From a virus: a stretch of 42,773 nt of DNA. The position numbers and the translations under genes are program-made. The notes under the pieces are model-generated. The model did not search any database and was not told the DNA's origin. It worked only from the letters and a program-made list of their open reading frames with translations. Shown in pieces: positions 11,446 through 38,835 of this stretch; position 1 is the first letter of the stretch, and every line of letters begins with the position of its first letter. Location: positions 1-42,773 of IMG/VR virus record IMGVR_UViG_3300008262_000112; one strand, given 5' to 3'.

Positions 11446-14400
11446 TCAAACATTATCTTTAAACGAACGATAAAATAGAGAAGATGCTACCATCATTCCG
11501 TTAACACCTATGCCAGCCCCAGCAAAATTTGCCATAACAGGAATATCAATAGTTAGTTGAGCAGAATTGTCAATTAAATTAGGTCCTACCCTAACTGTAC
11601 CGGCAATAAAGCTAGATGTTAATAGATCAGAACCACCAATATTTAATCTAGTAGCCAAATATGATTTTATAGCACGTTGTGTTGGTACAATGTTGTTAGA
11701 ATCTGCAATGAATAACGCATCAGTTGAAAATTCTCTAACAACTGCTCCTGATCCGCCTAATCGCACACCGCCTAACGCCAATTCTGTTAGTCCGTTTAGT
11801 TCAAAGAAGTCAGCACTGATAGTAACAATACCAGTTGCTTGTTCTACTGCAAATAATTCACCAGTTCTAAAATTACCACTTTGATCGGTACTTGTGTAGA
11901 AAACTCTACCTCCGTTTAATTCTTGAACTTCATTTTCTGGTGCTGATGTATAATTACCTGTAGAATATAATGTTGGATAATTTGTTTCTTCAAAATTTCC
12001 AGTTCCTATATCTAAGAAATCGTGTCCTGTAATTCGAACTTGACTGTATTTTTCGCGTATTTCGACTTCTGTATTTTCTAAAAACTCATCGTCATATGTT
12101 ATTAACGGACTTACTTGGAATGTAGATCGTAATGTTTCGTTTTCAGGAGTTACTTCTATACCTGTTACAACCACGGTATAAACATTGTCTGAGCCGCCAA
12201 ATCTAAACTGAGCTCCAGGTCCGGGAATTCTCTCAAGACCACTTAATGTAACAAAACGACCTCTTGGAATAATATCAGCAAATCCGTCCCCAATTACAGA
12301 TATAACTGTTGTACTAGTTCTATAAGCATTGCCTCTATTTAAGAAAGTTGGTTGCGCTAATACTCCGTCTGCTATTCTTGGATTCACATATGCATTAGAA
12401 GTATTGTTAGGATCTGTAAAAGTAACAGTAGGTGCCGATGTATAACCAGACCCTGGTTCCCATAATTTAATTTGAGCTATGTTTCCGCTTTCAACTACTG
12501 CTCTTCCTAGAGTTCTAGCACCAGTAAATATTCTGTTTATGTCACTGCTTGATGTTGTAGGAGCTGCAATCCACATAGGTTGATTATTTGATACTGTAGA
12601 GTCTCCTAGTGTTACATCAGGATTTCCAAATCCAATAACACCCCATCGATGTGATTCTGTTAAAGTTCTGCTAGTCCAAACAATACCGTCGTATGATGTA
12701 GCTGCAAATGTTGTCGGTCCGGCAGTTGATGTTTCACATACAGCAAAGAACACACCTTGACCGTATCTTATTTGTTTCCAGTACATTTCTGTTGCGCTAG
12801 GTTGAGGCATCCCTGCAGAAGTAGTATACCATTGTAGGCCGTCAAAACTGTATGATACGTCGCCCGATGTAGAAACTGTAACAAATCTTCCGTTACCGTA
12901 GACAATACTAGACCAATCTTCTGGAGAAGAATCTTGCACCTCTAACACAGACGAAGTCCATGTCCATAAAGTTGTAGTTGCATTATAAGACCCAACCGCT
13001 ACAGCATTACTACTGTTAGCAATTGCTACAAATTTACCTTTACCGTAGGCAACATCTTTCCACTCGTTCAATGTCGAGTCACCTATAGTAGGCAATGTAG
13101 TTGTTAACCAATTCGTACCATCGAGTGTATATGCAGCGTCAAGGGTACTACTTGATACTGCAAGGAATACTCCAGTTGTATTGTCTGTAGCTAAACCGTA
13201 TACTACACTGTTCCAAGTTGCCGTTGAGGGTAATGTTGTTGTAGTCCATGAAATTCCATTAGTAGAAAGCACAGCATTTGAACTATTATATTGTACTGCT
13301 ACAAATTTATAATTCCCGTATGCAATAGATGACCAGTTACCATTAAACGGTAATGGAGAGGATAACCAATTAGATCCGTTTGAAGAATATGCGCTAGAGC
13401 TTCCGTTGTTAGGAGTCATAACAAATCTTCCGCTGGATGCAGTGCCCTCATATTCAAAAGTTAAGATTGAATTAGTGCTGTCATCTGAAATTGATTTTAC
13501 TGTAATAGTAATATCGTGTTCTATAGTTAATCCGCCGACGTTTGCTCCGTTAATAGTAATAATTTGTTCATCTTCGTAGCCAGCTCCGCCATTTAATAAA
13601 GTTACAATATATGATCTTCCGGATTTAGTAACATTCCAAGTAGCAGTAAGTGGTGCAACATCAATCGTTGTACCTAACCCAACTGTTCCGCCAACTCCGG
13701 TATACACTTCTAAAGTTTCTCCGTAGACTACTGCTGCCCATGACGCAGTAGTTGGTGAAGATACTAGTTCAGCAGTAAAAGAAGGAGCACTAAATGTTAC
13801 TCTTGGTTCAAAGAGATATCTAGTACCAGTTGTTAGTAAATCTTTAATAGGAGTTCCTGGAATAACATGATCCCATCCTGGCTGATTGTCACTTTCTCTA
13901 TATACTGTAACTAATTTTAAACCTTCATCATATGCTTGAACATATCCGTATTGGCCAGTTCCTTCACCACTAGTTAATATAACTCTAGTACCTAACAATG
14001 TTTGTTCGGTATTTTGATCGTTTGTAGCTAAAGTAATTGTTAATCTGTCCCCGTACTGAGCATTGTTACCTGCAAGTATGTAATCGCCGGCACCTTCCAT
14101 GCCTGAAGGATTTCCAGGTGCATTTCTTACCTGCGCTTCAAATACTGCATTATCTCTATATTCTTCTTGTATTAAACTGGCGCCAGTTCCTGATCCAATA
14201 ATTGTATATACTGCATTAGAATAGTTTTGTCCTGCATTTGAAAATTCTACTACTAAAATTTCATCATTAATTTCTCCGGCAAATGCATTTGCAATTTGCG
14301 CTTCTTCGGTACGGTTATTTACATATCCGTATGCAGGTGTCTCTGTAGGATCGTTTGCATCTGCAATAGTACCGTAAGTTCCGTAAGAACTATTACCATT

Positions 14401-16956
14401 AGTTGCACGAATAATTCCACCGTCTTCTGCAAACATACCAATGTGTGCATAATAAGTAAACACGGACACAAGTTCTGCTCGGCCGCCATTTAGTACATGG
14501 GCGCCAATTCCGTCTGATATAACTTGTGTAAAATCGTTTGATGTAATAGATTTATTACCACCGTTGTGCAAATTACCGTCGACTTTTTGGCCCGTAGCAG
14601 CAGTACCGAACGTTGTTACGTTTTGTATGTATGAAGATCTTGATGTTATCCAACAATCTTCGTGAGCTGGGCCCCATCCTGGATCAAGAGAAACAAACGA
14701 GCCGCCGTTAGGCCTTTGATACAATTCAAATTGGAGTTGTGGAGACAACTCTCCTGTTAACCCAGATAATGTTACATTGCGTATACCCGAACTGTCGCGT
14801 ACATAAAACATATCTTCTGATGCAGACCCAATAATATCATTTGCATACCATCTTGCTTCTAAAAGAGAGTTATAATTTCCAGTATATGTAATATCTGTTA
14901 TCCAAGCATCTATATATCTTTTAATATCTACCCTACGACGAGCTTCATCGTATTGATAAGACGGAACTAACTCGTTAATAAATGCTACTCCTTCTGCTGC
15001 TAAAAAATCTTTGTTAGATTCAAGAATTTCTTTTGCATTAGAATAAGTTGTAGAATCAGTGGGGGTCATTGTACCTGTTAATGAAGGCGGAACTCCAACG
15101 CCGAGTATTCTGCTGTTGATATAAGTTTTCATATCAACTATGATATTTTTAATTTCTGTTGCTACTGGTATTGTGCTGTAATCTAAAGGACTTGCTGGTA
15201 TATATTGCGTTTCTAAATTTGTTACACTTTTTGTAATTTGTATACCGGTGAGTATGCTTTGAATTATATCATAAAATCTATCAAGAATAACAATAATAGC
15301 AGGTCTATCATCAAATCTTTCTACGCTAGGATCATTAGGTTTAATTGTTGTAGAACGTAATTCAGCACCATCGATAGCAGTATTTTTTGGAACAATTATT
15401 GGTAAAACTTCTTTATAGATACCTGGCCAAATTTTAATAGTTGTAGTTCCGAGATACCCGTCATTGGCCTTCCTAGCGGCAAAATGAACTGTTTTCCAAG
15501 GTTTAAAATAATTTACACCTCTATTCACATCAGTGTCATCGTCTATACCATCTGTGCGTACATGGAATATTCTAGTTAAAGTTCCCCATGTGCTATAATC
15601 TGCTACACTATTAGTTTCTACTTTTAAAACATCATCTTCTATACCAATAGCAATTCTTGTTGCGCCAACTGTACTGCCGTCGTTAGCTACGGTTCTTGAC
15701 AGTCCGTATATTAATAAATCTCCCGGATACTGTGTGCCTATATCACCACCGGCAATTAACATGTTCCAGTAATTGTAGCCCGAACCGTTATCTCCAGGAT
15801 ATGAATTGTCTACTGACAAATGACTAACATTACAAATATAAGTGCTACCAATATGATAAACTATATCGTTTATTTCATATTCTGTTGCTGTTACCCAATT
15901 ACCTTTCCATTCTTGTCCAGGTGCTAGTAATTCCCAATTTGACAGATCTAAATAATCTAAGCTACTTCCGTCTGCTACTGTATTAACTAATGCTACATAA
16001 AGTTGGCCGCCTCGACGGACTAGATCGCCTGCTTTGTAATTTTCAGTGCTGTTCCAGGTTCCTGCAAGCGTTGTAGCTTTTGTAATTAATGTCCAGTTAG
16101 GATTGCCTACACTATATGTTTCAGATTCTCCAGGCTCGCTGTTTATGTTGTTTGCGCTGCTTACATAAACATAACCGCCGTGTCTAACAACATCTCCAAT
16201 AGCATAATATGCAGTATTGCTCCAATTATTATAAAAATTAAGTCCTCTTAACTCTGTAATAAAATTGTTATTATCAACATTTCCGGCAACACTAGACGAA
16301 GTATGTTCTTCTGTACAGCGTAGTAAACTGCCTCCGTACTTTACTAGATCATTGACTCTATATCTAGTGTTTATTGTGTATGTCCCAACAAATTTTATGT
16401 TGTCGTAAACAATTTCCCATGTTTCAGCAGTGCTGTCATTAGTGCTGTCACCATCACCTATAACTATACCTTGTGCTGTAGTACCAGCAACATGCTCACG
16501 AATACATCTATAAACAATACCGTTGTACGCTACAACGTCTCCTACTTTATAAACAGAAGCAGAAGTCCACGTAGTGCGCCAATTGTTGCCTTCAATAAAA
16601 ATATCCCACTCTGTAATATTGGTTTCAAAATATAAAGATGAGGTATGCCCTACTGAGCATAGATATAAGTTTCCGCCAGCAATAACTATTTCGCCAGGGC
16701 CATAAATCGTTGAGCTAGCCCATACACCTCTAAATTTGTAGCCATCTGTTACTCTTACCCACGCAGCAGATACTTCAGTGTTTAACGGATCTGCGAGATA
16801 TGTTTGATCTGTATTAAAATTACCAGAAGTGTGTGGGCGTATGCAAGCCCAGCTTGACCCTGCATAAAAAACTATGTCATCTTCTATGTACGCAGTGGTT
16901 GTAGTCCAGTAACCTTTCCAACGATATCTAATTCGTGGTATATTAAATTCAGCCAT
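11446..16956 (-). CDS. Giant multidomain tail-fibre/receptor-binding protein (1836 aa)
   Basis: A paralogue of the 2543-aa protein with the same order of parts. Seven CBM5/12-like modules occupy residues about 10-405 (AYIEDDIVFYAG, VYKVGDVVAYNG, YRVNDLVKYGG). A beta-helix core follows (HVRTDGIDD, FKPWKTVHFA, GIYKEVLPIIVP) with one helical module (VDIKRYIDAWITD). Then come the conserved TSRSSYIQN and NKSITSNDFTQVISDGIGA segment, a seven-unit Asp-box propeller at about 1179-1462, TDQSGNFRTGE near 1692, and a C-terminal REFSTDALFIADSNNIVPTQRA tail motif also present in the larger paralogue. It lacks the extra helical copies and inserts of its partner. It probably forms part of the same host-contact structure. 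The ribosome-binding site is weak (CTGGAA), with a late promoter just upstream. Confidence 0.75.
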   Translation of the reverse strand: MAEFNIPRIRYRWKGYWTTTTAYIEDDIVFYAGSSWACIRPHTSGNFNTDQTYLADPLNTEVSAAWVRVTDGYKFRGVWASSTIYGPGEIVIAGGNLYLCSVGHTSSLYFETNITEWDIFIEGNNWRTTWTSASVYKVGDVVAYNGIVYRCIREHVAGTTAQGIVIGDGDSTNDSTAETWEIVYDNIKFVGTYTINTRYRVNDLVKYGGSLLRCTEEHTSSSVAGNVDNNNFITELRGLNFYNNWSNTAYYAIGDVVRHGGYVYVSSANNINSEPGESETYSVGNPNWTLITKATTLAGTWNSTENYKAGDLVRRGGQLYVALVNTVADGSSLDYLDLSNWELLAPGQEWKGNWVTATEYEINDIVYHIGSTYICNVSHLSVDNSYPGDNGSGYNYWNMLIAGGDIGTQYPGDLLIYGLSRTVANDGSTVGATRIAIGIEDDVLKVETNSVADYSTWGTLTRIFHVRTDGIDDDTDVNRGVNYFKPWKTVHFAARKANDGYLGTTTIKIWPGIYKEVLPIIVPKNTAIDGAELRSTTIKPNDPSVERFDDRPAIIVILDRFYDIIQSILTGIQITKSVTNLETQYIPASPLDYSTIPVATEIKNIIVDMKTYINSRILGVGVPPSLTGTMTPTDSTTYSNAKEILESNKDFLAAEGVAFINELVPSYQYDEARRRVDIKRYIDAWITDITYTGNYNSLLEARWYANDIIGSASEDMFYVRDSSGIRNVTLSGLTGELSPQLQFELYQRPNGGSFVSLDPGWGPAHEDCWITSRSSYIQNVTTFGTAATGQKVDGNLHNGGNKSITSNDFTQVISDGIGAHVLNGGRAELVSVFTYYAHIGMFAEDGGIIRATNGNSSYGTYGTIADANDPTETPAYGYVNNRTEEAQIANAFAGEINDEILVVEFSNAGQNYSNAVYTIIGSGTGASLIQEEYRDNAVFEAQVRNAPGNPSGMEGAGDYILAGNNAQYGDRLTITLATNDQNTEQTLLGTRVILTSGEGTGQYGYVQAYDEGLKLVTVYRESDNQPGWDHVIPGTPIKDLLTTGTRYLFEPRVTFSAPSFTAELVSSPTTASWAAVVYGETLEVYTGVGGTVGLGTTIDVAPLTATWNVTKSGRSYIVTLLNGGAGYEDEQIITINGANVGGLTIEHDITITVKSISDDSTNSILTFEYEGTASSGRFVMTPNNGSSSAYSSNGSNWLSSPLPFNGNWSSIAYGNYKFVAVQYNSSNAVLSTNGISWTTTTLPSTATWNSVVYGLATDNTTGVFLAVSSSTLDAAYTLDGTNWLTTTLPTIGDSTLNEWKDVAYGKGKFVAIANSSNAVAVGSYNATTTLWTWTSSVLEVQDSSPEDWSSIVYGNGRFVTVSTSGDVSYSFDGLQWYTTSAGMPQPSATEMYWKQIRYGQGVFFAVCETSTAGPTTFAATSYDGIVWTSRTLTESHRWGVIGFGNPDVTLGDSTVSNNQPMWIAAPTTSSSDINRIFTGARTLGRAVVESGNIAQIKLWEPGSGYTSAPTVTFTDPNNTSNAYVNPRIADGVLAQPTFLNRGNAYRTSTTVISVIGDGFADIIPRGRFVTLSGLERIPGPGAQFRFGGSDNVYTVVVTGIEVTPENETLRSTFQVSPLITYDDEFLENTEVEIREKYSQVRITGHDFLDIGTGNFEETNYPTLYSTGNYTSAPENEVQELNGGRVFYTSTDQSGNFRTGELFAVEQATGIVTISADFFELNGLTELALGGVRLGGSGAVVREFSTDALFIADSNNIVPTQRAIKSYLATRLNIGGSDLLTSSFIAGTVRVGPNLIDNSAQLTIDIPVMANFAGAGIGVNGMMVASSLFYRSFKDNV
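12571..13422 (-). repeat. Asp-box (BNR-like) beta-propeller repeats in the 1836-aa protein
   Basis: Six clear units of the type W..I.YG.G.FVAV.....YS.DG..W, plus a partial closing strand (MWIAAPTTSS), suggest one seven-blade ring. Examples are SSNGSNW, STNGISW, TLDGTNW, SFDGLQW and SYDGIVW. Unlike the paralogue, no foreign domain interrupts the first two blades. Coordinates are approximate. Confidence 0.6.
15742..16929 (-). repeat. Seven chitin-binding-like (CBM5/12) modules, N-terminus of the 1836-aa protein
   Basis: Seven successive units of the W...Y..GD.V..GG..Y.C...H pattern (for example TYTINTRYRVNDLVKYGG), each ending in W followed by a hydrophobic stretch and Gly. The number matches the paralogue, but none of the units is split by an insert. 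Several Cys of the Y-x-C position are replaced in units five and six (YVYVSSAN, QLYVALVN). Confidence 0.6.
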
Positions 16957-16983: not shown

Positions 16984-16991
16984 TATTTATA
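16984..16991 (-). promoter_or_regulatory. Putative T4-type late promoter (TATAAATA)
   Basis: An exact match to the T4 late -10 box on the minus strand, 28 bases before the 1836-aa gene and overlapping the last codons of the upstream 120-aa gene. The position and perfect consensus make this one of the best promoter candidates in the fibre block. Confidence 0.6.
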
Positions 16992-34048: not shown

Positions 34049-36580
34049 TTATGCCTTGAATAAATTAGGGTTGTTGCTTTTTGTAGCTTTAGCAACATCT
34101 TTATGCCCCGTTTCAGTAACAGTAATTAACTGTGCCATCTTAGTATTTAACTGATTTAGACTGGTCAACATGTCTGACATGGATGCTTCTTTGCCGCCGG
34201 CTGCAGCAGGGGCTTTGTCACTGCCTGTTTTCTTTTCTTTTGCGCTAGTATCAGTGCCCATTTCAGCTTTAGCTCGTGCTTCTCGATCTTTGGCTTGTTC
34301 TTCTGCAGTTTTTTCCGATGGCTTTGCAGGAATAGTGGCAGCAGCAGCTTTAGTTTGGCCCATTATAGGCATTCCGTTAGGGCCAAATGATATATTTCCA
34401 ATATCTATGCCGCCTGCAGTTGGGCTAGTAGCCGAAACCATATCTGCCATAGCTCCTTGTTTTGCAACAGCTTCGTCTACTCCTGCAAATTCTCCCATAT
34501 CTGACATTGCTTGCTGTTTGGCTATAGCACCATCAAGATCTCCAAACTCATCTAATGGTATAGCATCTAAAATATCTGCGCTAACTCGATCCATTATGTC
34601 TCCGGTCTCATCCCACCCGTCTGCATACTTGGATATTGATTCAAGTTGTTTATTAGTTAATCTTTCTATTTGGCCGTCTAGCTGTTCAGCTTCATCAAAT
34701 ATCTCATCCCACTCTAAACTGTTTCTTGCCTGTCCGTCATTCATTAGATCTTCAAGTTCTTGACGTCGTTTGCTTGCAAAATCAAGAGCAGCAGAAGTTT
34801 GATCTTCTCCACCTCCACCTCCACTGACAGAAGTATTAATATCTTGTGATATCTTGCTAAGATCAAAACTCATTGCCGGAGCAGCACTTTGTTTAGGCAG
34901 TACATCTGTTAGCCCGCTGAATGCTTTTTCAGCACCCATGTCCATCATACCTTTTGCCATGTTCATTTGTTGTTCTGGGTTTAGAACAACTTCGCCAGGT
35001 TTAGTAATTTCTAAAATAGAACCTACTGCTTCACTAGTTAGACCATCGCCGTAAGTGCCGCCTGATCTTGGTAATACTTTATTAATTCCTTCACCTGCTT
35101 CTTTGCCCATCTTTCCAGCAGTCTGTAACATTCCTTTAGGTCTGTCAGTAGTTCTGCCTTTTTCCATTTCGCTTTCCATGTACTGTGGCAGACTTTGTCC
35201 AGCTTTAGTTGCGCTTGCAGGCAGTGCTTCAGATTTTGAACCTAATAGTCTATCAGCAAATCTACCCAGTGCGGGACTAACATCTCGATTTAACGGTAAC
35301 ACCAACTTGTTCATTATTGCACTTTCGGCATCTCCTACTCGCGCTCCTAGATTAACAACCGCTTTAGTTGCGCCACTAACTGCTTTGCCGTCTGCGTCTT
35401 TGCCTTCTTGAGATTTTTTAATTTCTTCATTTTGTATTCTTTGAGCTTCTCTTCGACCTTCGTCAGTATCCAAATTGAGTTTGTTAGCGGCAGCAATTGC
35501 TTCTAGTCCCCTAACTTGTTGAATTTGTGCACCAGCTGCGTCGTTTAATGCTTTTGTTGCGGCGCCGCCTGCATCCCCCAGTGTCATTTGTTGCAATTTA
35601 GCAGTATTGTTCATGTCAGCGGCTGCTGCTCTTCGGCCTTCGGCCGCTGCAGCATTTGCCTGCATTTCTCTTTGATCTGCAGATAGCTTTGCATCTGCAG
35701 ATACTTGTGCTTGTTTCCTTGTAGCTGCTGCTTGTTCTTGATTGAGCGAAGCCTGTATAGCAGCTTCTTTACTCATGATCTGTCCTGTGGCAAATATTTC
35801 TTTAAACATCTGCCCTTGTCCACGAAGTTGTGCGTCTGCGTACTGTTTCCTAGCGTTATCTTCAAGCTTCTTAGCATCTTCAGCACTCATGCCCTGCGTT
35901 TTCAAACGAATCGCAGCTTCAAATTGCATGTCAGCCTGAGCTTTCTTCATGTTAGCCATTTGTTCTTCACGGCTCTTACCCGTGAGTTTGGCCATTTCGT
36001 CCATTTCAGTTGCTAGTTTAGTGGCACTTTCAATTGTAGCTTTTTCTCTAGCTTGTGCATCTTTAAATGATCCACGCTGTATACTACCTTGCATCAATAA
36101 TATTTCATTGAGCTCTTTGTTAGTGTAGCCCATTTGACGTAATTGATCAGTTTGCGTACCGTACTCGTCAAACATCCTTTTGCTCATCTTAGCAAAATCT
36201 TCAGCACCTCGAGTAACTGTGCCGCCAAATCCTAACATGTTTTCGGCATTCTTACCTATAATGCCAGCAAACTCTTGCAGAGGCATTCTCGCACCAAAGG
36301 CTGCAGCAGTCATTCCTACAACATCATTACTGAATCCTGCACCAACTTTGCTGAGTTCTCTCCAGGTATCTAAACCTTTTTCAATGCCCGGGGCAACTTT
36401 ATTATAGGCCTCTTTAACTGCATCAGCAGCTTTGCCTGCGCCGCCTAACGCAGTATTGAATATGTTAAATTCACCAGCTCCGGGTAATTTTACAGATGGT
36501 CCTGTAGGAGAAGAACCCCCTTTGGCAGAATTTTTGTTTAATCGTTTCAGCTCTTCTAGAATTTCGTCTTCGCGTGCCAT
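34049..36580 (-). CDS. Large coiled-coil structural protein, putative tail tape measure
   Basis: An 843-aa protein, mostly helical and Ala-rich, with long charged coiled coil from about 150 to 400 (QAREKATIESATKLATEMDE, AAAEGRRAAAADMNN). A C-terminal third contains PGEVVLNPEQQMNMAKGMMD, a segment type often found in tape-measure proteins, and the final 80 residues are low in complexity. No membrane segment is clear. The neighbouring divergent gp26-type gene and its frameshift partner are what would normally accompany a tape-measure gene. In T4 the tape measure gp29 (590 aa) is elsewhere, so the identity is inferred. An internal head or tail protein is the alternative. Confidence 0.5.
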   Translation of the reverse strand: MAREDEILEELKRLNKNSAKGGSSPTGPSVKLPGAGEFNIFNTALGGAGKAADAVKEAYNKVAPGIEKGLDTWRELSKVGAGFSNDVVGMTAAAFGARMPLQEFAGIIGKNAENMLGFGGTVTRGAEDFAKMSKRMFDEYGTQTDQLRQMGYTNKELNEILLMQGSIQRGSFKDAQAREKATIESATKLATEMDEMAKLTGKSREEQMANMKKAQADMQFEAAIRLKTQGMSAEDAKKLEDNARKQYADAQLRGQGQMFKEIFATGQIMSKEAAIQASLNQEQAAATRKQAQVSADAKLSADQREMQANAAAAEGRRAAAADMNNTAKLQQMTLGDAGGAATKALNDAAGAQIQQVRGLEAIAAANKLNLDTDEGRREAQRIQNEEIKKSQEGKDADGKAVSGATKAVVNLGARVGDAESAIMNKLVLPLNRDVSPALGRFADRLLGSKSEALPASATKAGQSLPQYMESEMEKGRTTDRPKGMLQTAGKMGKEAGEGINKVLPRSGGTYGDGLTSEAVGSILEITKPGEVVLNPEQQMNMAKGMMDMGAEKAFSGLTDVLPKQSAAPAMSFDLSKISQDINTSVSGGGGGEDQTSAALDFASKRRQELEDLMNDGQARNSLEWDEIFDEAEQLDGQIERLTNKQLESISKYADGWDETGDIMDRVSADILDAIPLDEFGDLDGAIAKQQAMSDMGEFAGVDEAVAKQGAMADMVSATSPTAGGIDIGNISFGPNGMPIMGQTKAAAATIPAKPSEKTAEEQAKDREARAKAEMGTDTSAKEKKTGSDKAPAAAGGKEASMSDMLTSLNQLNTKMAQLITVTETGHKDVAKATKSNNPNLFKA

Positions 36581-36605
36581 TATATTTCCTGGTGAAATGT
36601 GCGTA

Positions 36606-36613
36606 TATAAATA
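36606..36613 (+). promoter_or_regulatory. T4-type late promoter for gp26 (TATAAATA)
   Basis: An exact TATAAATAC match to the T4 late -10 consensus on the plus strand, 27 bases before the gp26 start codon. It is paired with the opposite-strand element at 36623-36630. Confidence 0.65.
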
Positions 36614-36622
36614 CGGATAATA

Positions 36623-36630
36623 TATTTATC
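36623..36630 (-). promoter_or_regulatory. T4-type late promoter for the tape-measure/head operon (GATAAATA)
   Basis: Minus-strand GATAAATATATT lies 42 bases before the 843-aa gene, matching seven of eight consensus positions. The two -10 boxes are nine bases apart and point past each other, so each promoter lies within the initial footprint of the other. Confidence 0.55.
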
Positions 36631-36640
36631 GGATCAAAAT

Positions 36641-37465
36641 ATGAACCCAGCAAACCCTTTACAAAAGTTTTTTAGACAACCAAAAATCTATGTAACGTTG
36701 CCTAGCAAAGGATTGTTCTACGAGCCGGGAGCATTTATAGGTGACTACAATAACGTTCCTGTATTTGCTATGACTGGCATGGATGAAATTGTTTATAAGA
36801 CTCCCGATGCTCTATACAGCGGAGAAGCCACTGCTAAAGTAATTGAAAGTTGCTGTCCGTTTGTGAAAAATGCAAAGGTAATGCCTAGCATTGACATTGA
36901 TGCGCTTATTATTGCCATAAGAATTGCAACATTTGGAGATAAACTATCAGTTTCTCAAAAATGTACAGCTTGTGAAACTGAAAATGACTACGACATTGAC
37001 CTAAAAGGCATGCTAGATTATTTTAATAACTTAAAATTTATTAATACTGTAGTCATCAACGATTCATTAACTATTAAAATTCGTCCCTTGCAGTACGACG
37101 AAATGAGTTATTTTAGTATAGAAAATTTTAAATTACAAAAAACTCTGTATCAAACAGTTGAAATGGCTGACGCAGAAAAACAAAAACAACTTGATCAAAT
37201 TTATAAAGATCTTAGCGAACTACAACTACAATTATTTTTAACTGCTGTTGAACAAGTTCAAACACCCGATGGTAATGTAGATGACAAAGCCTTTATTGAA
37301 GACTGGTTACGTAATACTGATAGAGATTCTTATAACAGTATTAAACTTAAACTAGAACAAAACAAAGAAACATGGAGCATGCCTAAGCAGCAGATAAAAT
37401 GTGCTGCCTGCGGTCATGAAGATCATGTTAACGTCACCCTGGATCAATCAAATTTTTTCGTATAA
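36641..37465 (+). CDS. gp26: gp26-like baseplate/tail-assembly protein
   Basis: A 274-aa protein of the T4 gp26 baseplate family (Pfam T4_baseplate type). Signature segments are YVTLPSKGLFYEPG near the N-terminus, TGMDEIVYKTPDALYSGEA, and SCCPFVKNAKVMPSIDIDAL. Two CxxC pairs, KCTACETEND at about 106 and KCAACGHEDH at about 257, probably bind zinc. Classically it is a baseplate hub assembly protein; a chaperone role for the tape measure is an open alternative. It has only a weak ribosome-binding site (CGGAT). Its 3' end contains a slippery run that leads into a -1-frame extension. Confidence 0.85.
   Translation: MNPANPLQKFFRQPKIYVTLPSKGLFYEPGAFIGDYNNVPVFAMTGMDEIVYKTPDALYSGEATAKVIESCCPFVKNAKVMPSIDIDALIIAIRIATFGDKLSVSQKCTACETENDYDIDLKGMLDYFNNLKFINTVVINDSLTIKIRPLQYDEMSYFSIENFKLQKTLYQTVEMADAEKQKQLDQIYKDLSELQLQLFLTAVEQVQTPDGNVDDKAFIEDWLRNTDRDSYNSIKLKLEQNKETWSMPKQQIKCAACGHEDHVNVTLDQSNFFV
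37450..37459 (+). promoter_or_regulatory. Candidate -1 ribosomal frameshift site (A-AAT-TTT-TTC)
   Basis: In the gp26 frame the bases read A AAT TTT TTC GTA TAA. Two overlapping X-XXY-YYZ heptamers are present, A-AAU-UUU and U-UUU-UUC, two codons before the gp26 stop. A small stem (TCTCA/TGAGA, 37478-37492) lies 18 bases downstream. A shift into the -1 frame continues for 78 codons. Confidence 0.6.
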
Positions 37466-37692
37466 AGTTACTTCGTCTCTCAAACTCTGAGATTGAAGCC
37501 TATATTAACAGTCTTGAAAATGATGCTAAAGGCATCAAAGATGAAATTTTTAGACTAAGTTGGTATATGCGAGGCGGAGTAACTAGCCAAGAATTGTTTC
37601 ACATTTACTCTTATGAAGATAGAGTGTTAATTAATGACATTGTCAAAGACAACATTGAAGCTACTAAAAAGTCTGGCTTAAATTTAATTTAA
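37456..37692 (+). CDS. -1-frame extension of gp26, likely tail-assembly chaperone partner
   Basis: The frame is open from 37432, after an in-frame TAA, to the TAA at 37690-37692. It has no ATG, GTG or TTG before the conserved-looking part. The product reads on as LLRLSNSEIEAYINSLENDA, then EIFRLSWYMRGGVTSQELF, ending ATKKSGLNLI. A W-Y-M-R-G-G core with a following helix is typical of small second ORFs near phage tail genes. The first ATG lies inside that core, so normal initiation would lose it. Translation is most simply explained by -1 frameshifting from gp26, giving a fusion of about 350 aa. It overlaps the convergent 383-aa gene by nine bases. Confidence 0.65.
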   Translation, partial: FRIKLLRLSNSEIEAYINSLENDAKGIKDEIFRLSWYMRGGVTSQELFHIYSYEDRVLINDIVKDNIEATKKSGLNLI

Positions 37693-38835
37693 CACTTCCG
37701 GCGGATAAGAAGCGCCAGGCTTCTTGGGAATAGCTGCTAGTGGATTAGGTTTACCGGCCTGTTTGGCTCTCCACAGTTCATTTTTAATCTTTGGACTTAG
37801 TAACACATCTCTACTAGTAGTTAAGTAACCGTCGTAGTCAGTTACTAGCACATCATTTACATAGACTTTTTTAGCATCACGTGCTGAATCTTGAGCTGCC
37901 GCTGCATCTTTTTCTGCTTGAGTTGGTGTTAGTTTAGATTTAACAGCGTCAGGCACTTTAATATTTAATCCTGTTTCTTTACTAACCCATGCAGCAGCTT
38001 GATCACCAAGTTCGACAAGTTTATCTATGGCAAACGCAGTGGCGGATCCTAACTCTTTTGTTACATATCTACCTAAAGTAATTAATATACCATTGCTCCA
38101 ATAGCGTAAGAATTCTATACCTTGGGGACTAGATATCCATGCTGTTAATGCTAGCCTAACACTGGTGGCCATAGTTGAATTGCTGCCACTTAGTTTAGTA
38201 ATTACCCATCCTAGACCTTTTAAAGGATAACCAATAACTGGTCCTATTCCCGGTATTATTTTTATTGCAGATCCTAACACACTGACAAACTTACCTGCAA
38301 TACCCACAACTGCTAGCATTTGAGCAGTTGCATATCCTAATAGTTCTTCACGAGTTTCTAAAGCCTTTGCTCTAGCTTCTTCTACAGATTCCATGCTTGC
38401 AAACATATTATCAGATGAAAGCTCTTTTCCTTTTTCTTTAGCTGCCTTAAATTCTTCAAAATCTTCTTCTACAGCAGCAATTTGAGTTAGGTAATTATAA
38501 ACAATTACACCTACACCTAGTGATTGAAGTACTGTGCTTGCACTTGCTATACCTTCTTTGGCTTTGGCGGCTGCAGTAGCACTTGCGGCAGCTCTCTTAG
38601 CAATCATGTCAATACGTTCTTGACCTTTTAATCCTTTAAGGTCATACTTGCTTTGACCAAATATATTTTTTTCCTGCCTAGCTTTTCTAGCAGCTTGTGC
38701 TGCTTTTAGATCTTTACTTCGTTTATATCCTCTATATGCCTTTTGTACAGCATTAGCACCTTTTGTTACTCCGGGAATAACTCCAAGGATTTCGTCAACT
38801 TGCTGTTCTTCAGATATAATCTCGTATATTTTCAT
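37684..38835 (-). CDS. Putative internal head protein with capsid-targeting-like N-terminus (383 aa)
   Basis: It begins MKIYEIISEEQQVDE, resembling the N-terminal capsid-targeting peptide of T4 internal proteins. Ile7-Ser-Glu9 fits the gp21 (L/I)-x-E cleavage rule. A Lys/Arg-rich stretch follows (about 33-60), then a hydrophobic segment at about 97-122 and a long Gly/Ile-rich one at about 166-214 (IIPGIGPVIGYPLKGLGW), interrupted by an acidic helix. The last 110 residues are hydrophilic. Such a layout suits a protein packaged in the head and injected with DNA, possibly acting at the host membrane. That is inference. No family was recognised, and no ribosome-binding site is clear. Confidence 0.55.
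   Translation of the reverse strand: MKIYEIISEEQQVDEILGVIPGVTKGANAVQKAYRGYKRSKDLKAAQAARKARQEKNIFGQSKYDLKGLKGQERIDMIAKRAAASATAAAKAKEGIASASTVLQSLGVGVIVYNYLTQIAAVEEDFEEFKAAKEKGKELSSDNMFASMESVEEARAKALETREELLGYATAQMLAVVGIAGKFVSVLGSAIKIIPGIGPVIGYPLKGLGWVITKLSGSNSTMATSVRLALTAWISSPQGIEFLRYWSNGILITLGRYVTKELGSATAFAIDKLVELGDQAAAWVSKETGLNIKVPDAVKSKLTPTQAEKDAAAAQDSARDAKKVYVNDVLVTDYDGYLTTSRDVLLSPKIKNELWRAKQAGKPNPLAAIPKKPGASYPPEVLN

Follow-up and report, generated by a model that had tools for sequence, protein, structure and literature searches.

Does the gp26-like gene in this window (the whole 42,773-base stretch of DNA that was analysed) end at its own stop codon, or do some ribosomes pass into the −1 frame that lies open behind it and make a second, longer protein? 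The first-pass annotation proposed the latter, a programmed −1 frameshift joining gp26 to an extension without a start codon, and the comparison described here supports this as the best reading, on the strength of a conserved slip site and of selected coding in the −1 frame. Judged from sequence comparison, the gp26 locus very probably encodes both a TAC-N and a TAC-NC protein, the latter made by −1 ribosomal frameshifting, as in lambda G and GT. The features concerned are the following.

36641-37465, plus strand: gp26 (TAC-N-like) gene, 0 frame, 274 aa, with PF12322 and phrog_150 matches
37453-37459, plus strand: slippery heptamer T-TTT-TTC, two Phe codons of gp26, in phase in every one of the 37 distinct sequences
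37450-37456, plus strand: heptamer A-AAT-TTT, overlapping T-TTT-TTC, present and unconserved
37459-37692, plus strand: −1 frame extension (putative C-terminal part of TAC-NC), 77 codons, the first CGT (Arg), stop TAA at 37690-37692
34049-36580, minus strand: 843-aa gene, tape-measure-like by synteny and the RaK2 annotation, divergent neighbour of gp26

The gp26 gene and its neighbourhood

The gp26 protein passes the family cut-off for the T4-like gp26/TAC-N family, by matching (i) PF12322 in the Pfam profile search (E=4.8e-18; 66.1 bits against a cut-off of 24.5) and (ii) phrog_150, a baseplate hub family, in the PHROG profile search (E=4e-19). Using AlphaFold2, we modelled gp26 and the extension as two separate parts. 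The gp26 model (pLDDT 87.8) found its best BFVD matches among T4-like baseplate hub assembly proteins (E 2.3e-21, TM 0.88), which are partly close homologues. A PDB fold search with the same model gave nothing better than E 0.5, and the tail-chaperone fold is therefore unconfirmed for gp26, since no solved structure resembles the model. The model also matched, in BFVD, uncharacterised proteins of 450-550 aa from other jumbo phages (Ralstonia RSF1 and RP12, and Erwinia Special G), which are perhaps unrecognised tail chaperones. The source phage of the window is T4-related and probably has a large genome.

The divergent 843-aa neighbour has no Pfam or PHROG profile match of its own. Its homologues adjoin gp26 in most IMG/VR relatives, and the RaK2 gene at the same position is annotated as similar to tape measure protein; this synteny and the annotation of its RaK2 counterpart point to a tape-measure-like protein. 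On the plus strand gp26 stands alone, divergent from the tape-measure-like gene across 36580-36641 and convergent with a 383-aa ORF (37684-38835, minus strand), whose 3′ end the −1 extension overlaps by 9 bp (37684-37692). The −10 element of a T4-type late promoter is matched by TATAAATA, which occurs only twice in the window versus 6.2 occurrences expected by chance.

36606-36613, plus strand: TATAAATA match, 28 bp upstream of the gp26 start (36641)
16984-16991, minus strand: second TATAAATA match, 28 bp upstream of a 1836-aa ORF (11446-16956, minus strand)

An open −1 frame beyond gp26

At its 3′ end gp26 reads CAA TCA AAT TTT TTC GTA TAA, with the stop at 37463-37465, and includes six T's at 37453-37458 followed by C at 37459. 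The −1 frame is open from stop to stop between 37432 and 37692, which gives the 86 codons that the first-pass annotation had counted. Also as described there, no ATG, GTG, or TTG precedes the protein-like core SWYMRGG; the first ATG in this frame is the Met within that core (residue 37), 104 nt beyond the gp26 stop. A slip on T-TTT-TTC would yield gp26 through ...LDQSNFF followed by RIKLLRLSNSEIEAYINSLENDAKGIKDEIFRLSWYMRGGVTSQELFHIYSYEDRVLINDIVKDNIEATKKSGLNLI, a predicted product of 350 aa in agreement with the earlier estimate of about 350. A +1 shift, which we considered and rejected, would enter a frame that varies in relatives and in the window has just 30 open codons.

Conservation of the slip site

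Relatives were gathered with gp26 from IMG/VR (48 loci, identity down to 35%) and from GenBank phages (59 records, nearly all from large T4-related phages), which after removal of duplicates left 36 distinct relatives and, with the window, 37 sequences covering the junction. T-TTT-TTC is kept in the same phase, with an open −1 frame behind it, in all 36 relatives, Atu_ph07, Phosso, RaK2, 121Q, and PAC2 among them. The −1 overlap and slippery run that the first-pass annotation had suggested seeking in relatives are thus retained throughout.

The same annotation had named two overlapping slippery heptamers before the gp26 stop. Both exist, but only T-TTT-TTC is conserved. The codon preceding it is AAT, AGT, ACT, TCT, GCT, CAT, or CGT across relatives, and because this codon varies, we rejected A-AAT-TTT as the shift site and regard it as incidental. 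The residue before the two Phe codons is accordingly Asn, Ser, Thr, Ala, His, or Arg in the 37 sequences, always encoded by a T-ending codon. The second Phe codon is always TTC, which makes up 19% of Phe codons in the same genes. Moreover, the slip site ranks first among the 178 three-codon windows of the gp26 alignment in synonymous conservation, with 99% identical codons against a mean of 51%, so that codon conservation here exceeds what the amino acids require. T-TTT-TTC has no other in-phase copy in gp26 in any of the 26 cluster representatives. From the codon usage of the same genes, and with lineages assumed to be independent, the chance of finding NNT-TTT-TTC in every lineage has a log10 P of about −9.5 for 9 lineages below 50% identity and of −22.9 for 22 lineages below 80% identity.

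The extension as a selected protein segment

Behind the slip, the −1 frame runs for 71-77 codons with recognisable similarity in all 37 sequences. Most resolved pairs of extension sequences have a dN/dS of 0.03-0.15, similar to that of gp26, and purifying selection, as measured by these sequence comparisons, acts on the extension. In a protein alignment of 25 sequences (A2), no substitution affects the Arg that immediately follows the slip or the W, M, R, and N of the core; RaK2, 121Q, and PAC2, which lie outside this alignment, depart from the SWYMRGG motif. The 0-frame tail of gp26 beyond the slip amounts to 1 to 6 codons depending on the lineage, and the −1 protein begins exactly at the slip.

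The AlphaFold2 model of the extension is all-helical (pLDDT 87.4). Searches with the extension alone gave no significant Pfam or PHROG profile match, and a BFVD fold search with its model gave nothing better than E 0.9. Against the C-terminus of T4 gp51 and the T4-type extension it matches weakly (hhalign probability 39%, pairwise P 3e-4, 33 columns), with a common pattern S..EL..M...ER. From this pattern and from its position, homology of the window's extension to the T4-type extension appears likely, though not proven.

RNA structure around the slip site

Folding z-scores for positions along the gene were derived by comparison with dinucleotide-shuffled sequences, and their mean was taken across 27 representatives. 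This mean dips to −2.07 in a 72-nt segment that opens 5 nt beyond the slip, versus about −0.3 elsewhere, and 12 of the 27 representatives fall below −2 there. In the clade L021-L031 of our survey, a 12-bp stem starts 6 nt after the slip, with 98.8% of cells paired and four pairs changed on both sides; its covariation score is equalled by none of 500 shuffles, and the stem is lost once its partner arm is slid along. Other clades have different 3′ arms and a 5′ arm at similar spacing.

37471-37498, plus strand: candidate stimulatory hairpin (CUUCG..CUCUC / GAGAU.UGAAG), weak here, with a spacer of 11 nt

Folding downstream of the slip in the window itself gives a z of −2.62 over 102 nt and of −1.56 over the 72-nt segment. 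Because the local hairpin is weak and its spacer is 11 nt, the stimulator in the window is uncertain. Upstream of the window's slip, a search for a Shine-Dalgarno-like stimulator found only GGA at 9 nt, which is no better than noise across relatives. An SD-like GGAGG does precede the T run by 10 nt in Cr30 and in the cyanophages P-SSM2 and S-PM2; the two cyanophages also have stems of 13-14 bp downstream of the slip, with perfect or nearly perfect pairing.

Alternatives to a ribosomal frameshift

The extension might instead be an independent small protein with a canonical or rare start codon of its own, used through re-initiation or translational coupling at the gp26 stop, and the T run would then be incidental. 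Several relatives have starts that would serve: an ATG overlaps the gp26 stop in the L004 group, in L035 (at extension codon 7), in Atu_ph07, and in Phosso; 121Q has an ATG 2 nt after the stop; several other relatives have a TTG at extension codon 5; and the 121Q and Phosso records annotate separate ORFs for the extension. However, 13 of the 26 lineages (90% identity clusters), the window included, have no ATG, GTG, or TTG in the first 25 extension codons, and the PAC2 extension has no start codon at all. The loss of start codons anticipated by the first-pass annotation therefore holds for half of the lineages, a few others having an ATG near the gp26 stop. The codon aligned to that ATG varies (ATA, ATG, CTA, or TTA), and the conserved −1 residues begin at the slip, upstream of any such start. 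Furthermore, the slip site and downstream stems are conserved even where an ATG is present: the slip site is retained in the 4 of 26 lineages with an ATG within the first five extension codons, as well as in L035, so that homologues combining a normal ATG with a missing slippery site were not encountered. We favour fusion over independent initiation because half of the lineages lack early starts, because the −1 protein starts at the slip, and because the ATG-bearing lineages keep the slip site; independent initiation is, on balance, improbable.

RNA polymerase, rather than the ribosome, might change the frame by transcriptional realignment on the run of T's. The run of six T's is there, and some T4-like phages have seven. 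Six T's are nevertheless short for efficient polymerase slippage, and the jumbo group invariably has six T's followed by C, in the exact X-XXY-YYZ phase. The downstream stem, moreover, lies at a spacing suited to the ribosome and is not needed by a polymerase mechanism, which makes this explanation more improbable still.

The least credible alternative, that the −1 frame is a one-base sequencing error or the decayed remnant of an ATG-started gene, could appeal to the window being a single metagenomic record, but it is refuted by the 36 distinct relatives that share the arrangement, five of them isolate genomes, and is also opposed by the purifying selection on the extension.

Comparison with T4-like phages and other known systems

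T4 has two PF12322 genes, 26 and 51. One such gene each was found in the complete genomes of Atu_ph07, Phosso, RaK2, 121Q, and PAC2, and likewise in those of P-SSM2, S-PM2, HTVC008M, phiM12, Cr30, KVP40, phiW14, and pf16. A second full-length PF12322 gene, as in the T4 arrangement of 26 plus 51, is absent from the first five of these, which are the complete relatives of the window; the window's own record comprises 42,773 bases. Along the 282 positions of phrog_150, T4 gp51 matches 3-281 and gp26 proteins match about 2-235. The C-terminal part of this family lies directly downstream of gp26 in the −1 frame in P-SSM2, S-PM2, HTVC008M, Cr30, phiM12, and pf16, and is preceded in these six by T-TTT-TTC or a run of seven T's. 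KVP40 and Delftia phage phiW-14 have T-TTT-TTC at the end of gp26 and a −1 continuation resembling the gp51 C-terminus; from these sites, even a member of the Straboviridae seems to have retained the frameshift. No T run of this kind is present in T4 gene 26, which is followed directly by gene 25.

The window's locus thus shares with the T4-like gp26 (TAC-N) and gp51 (TAC-NC) proteins the families PF12322 and phrog_150 and, by prediction, the short and long forms, and shares with the cyanophages, KVP40, HTVC008M, Cr30, phiM12, pf16, and phiW14 the −1 arrangement with a polyT slip. It differs from T4 in having one gene plus a probable shift in place of two genes, and its extension has the SWYMRGG core, unlike the T4-type extension, and matches the gp51 C-terminus weakly. 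Lambda gpG/gpGT, encoded beside the tape measure gene, resembles the proposed system in that one gene gives a short form and a rarer −1 long form by X-XXY-YYZ logic; it differs in slip sequence and in protein size, and in the window gp26 diverges from its tape-measure-like neighbour. The tail assembly chaperone locus of Pseudomonas phage Adele, which belongs to another phage family (Vandenendeviridae), is also similar, with a conserved polyT slip (GTTTTT) at the 3′ end of TAC-N and an open −1 frame of more than 200 bp that is annotated elsewhere as a separate hypothetical gene (PMC12846349). The heptamer with a downstream stem recalls −1 signals of the dnaX type, to which the cyanophage relatives add the SD-like element that the window's group lacks.

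Chaperone frameshifting is said, in a published abstract, to be conserved in several T4-like groups, T4 itself reportedly using genes 26 and 51. A 2016 review described the G-T frameshift as widely conserved among long-tailed phages "except T4" (Atkins et al. 2016, PMC5009743). The assignment of tail assembly chaperone genes in T4-like phages is credited to Vladimirov, Gautam & Davidson (2022, Virology 566:9-15). The PRFect paper cites the study for some T4-like phages that have both a short gene and a fused long gene (PMC10885494), and another paper cites it for polyT slip sites in the TAC-N genes of T4-like phages (PMC12846349). As cited there, that study makes the first-pass statement that no such description was known for a T4-type gp26 out of date. 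The idea of a T4-like chaperone frameshift is therefore already known, and the window's locus adds to it with good support; our literature search returned no report of a frameshifted gp26 in phages of the RaK2/Atu_ph07 type.

A model for gp26 expression and function

Comparison with relatives shows, at the level of the genomes, a conserved shift site, a selected −1 coding sequence starting at the shift, and a downstream structure in relatives; the occurrence of the shift, its efficiency, and the chaperone role of gp26 are inferred. In the proposed mechanism, gp26 would be the short tail assembly chaperone (TAC-N), and most ribosomes would stop at 37463 to give its 274-aa form. A minority would slip one base back on U-UUU-UUC, where both Phe tRNAs could re-pair in the −1 frame, with help from an RNA stem located a few nucleotides further on, and would then complete a long form (TAC-NC) of 350 aa with an additional helical domain of 77 residues. 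If lambda gpG/gpGT is a guide, the tape-measure protein would be coated by numerous short copies and a small number of long ones, and the long form may recruit tail-tube subunits through its extension, linking the tape-measure protein to the tube. The chaperone pair that the first-pass annotation had envisaged for gp26 and its fusion, serving the tape-measure-like neighbour, remains the best-supported reading, in which the chaperone activity and the tape-measure partner are the inferred parts.

Implications for large T4-related phages

On these results, a broad range of large T4-related phages would join those with a frameshifted tail chaperone. The gene catalogues of RaK2, 121Q, PAC2, and Phosso omit the extension or list it as a separate hypothetical protein: it is unannotated in the RaK2 and PAC2 records. 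The Atu_ph07 record lists a truncated version of it (470178-470300), a hypothetical protein that begins at an internal ATG. Because the same T-TTT-TTC is found in cyanophages, KVP40, and phiW14, its distribution suggests that frameshifting is the older state and that the separate 26 and 51 genes of T4 are derived. The conserved slip site makes the ratio of short to long forms testable in cultured phages.

It is conceivable, though we consider it unlikely, that the extension is in evolutionary transition, with Atu_ph07, Phosso, 121Q, the L004 group, and L035 having gained an ATG at the gp26 stop and making the C-terminal domain in both fused and free form. If so, the clade would display stages that lie between a single frameshifted gene and the separately encoded chaperones of T4.
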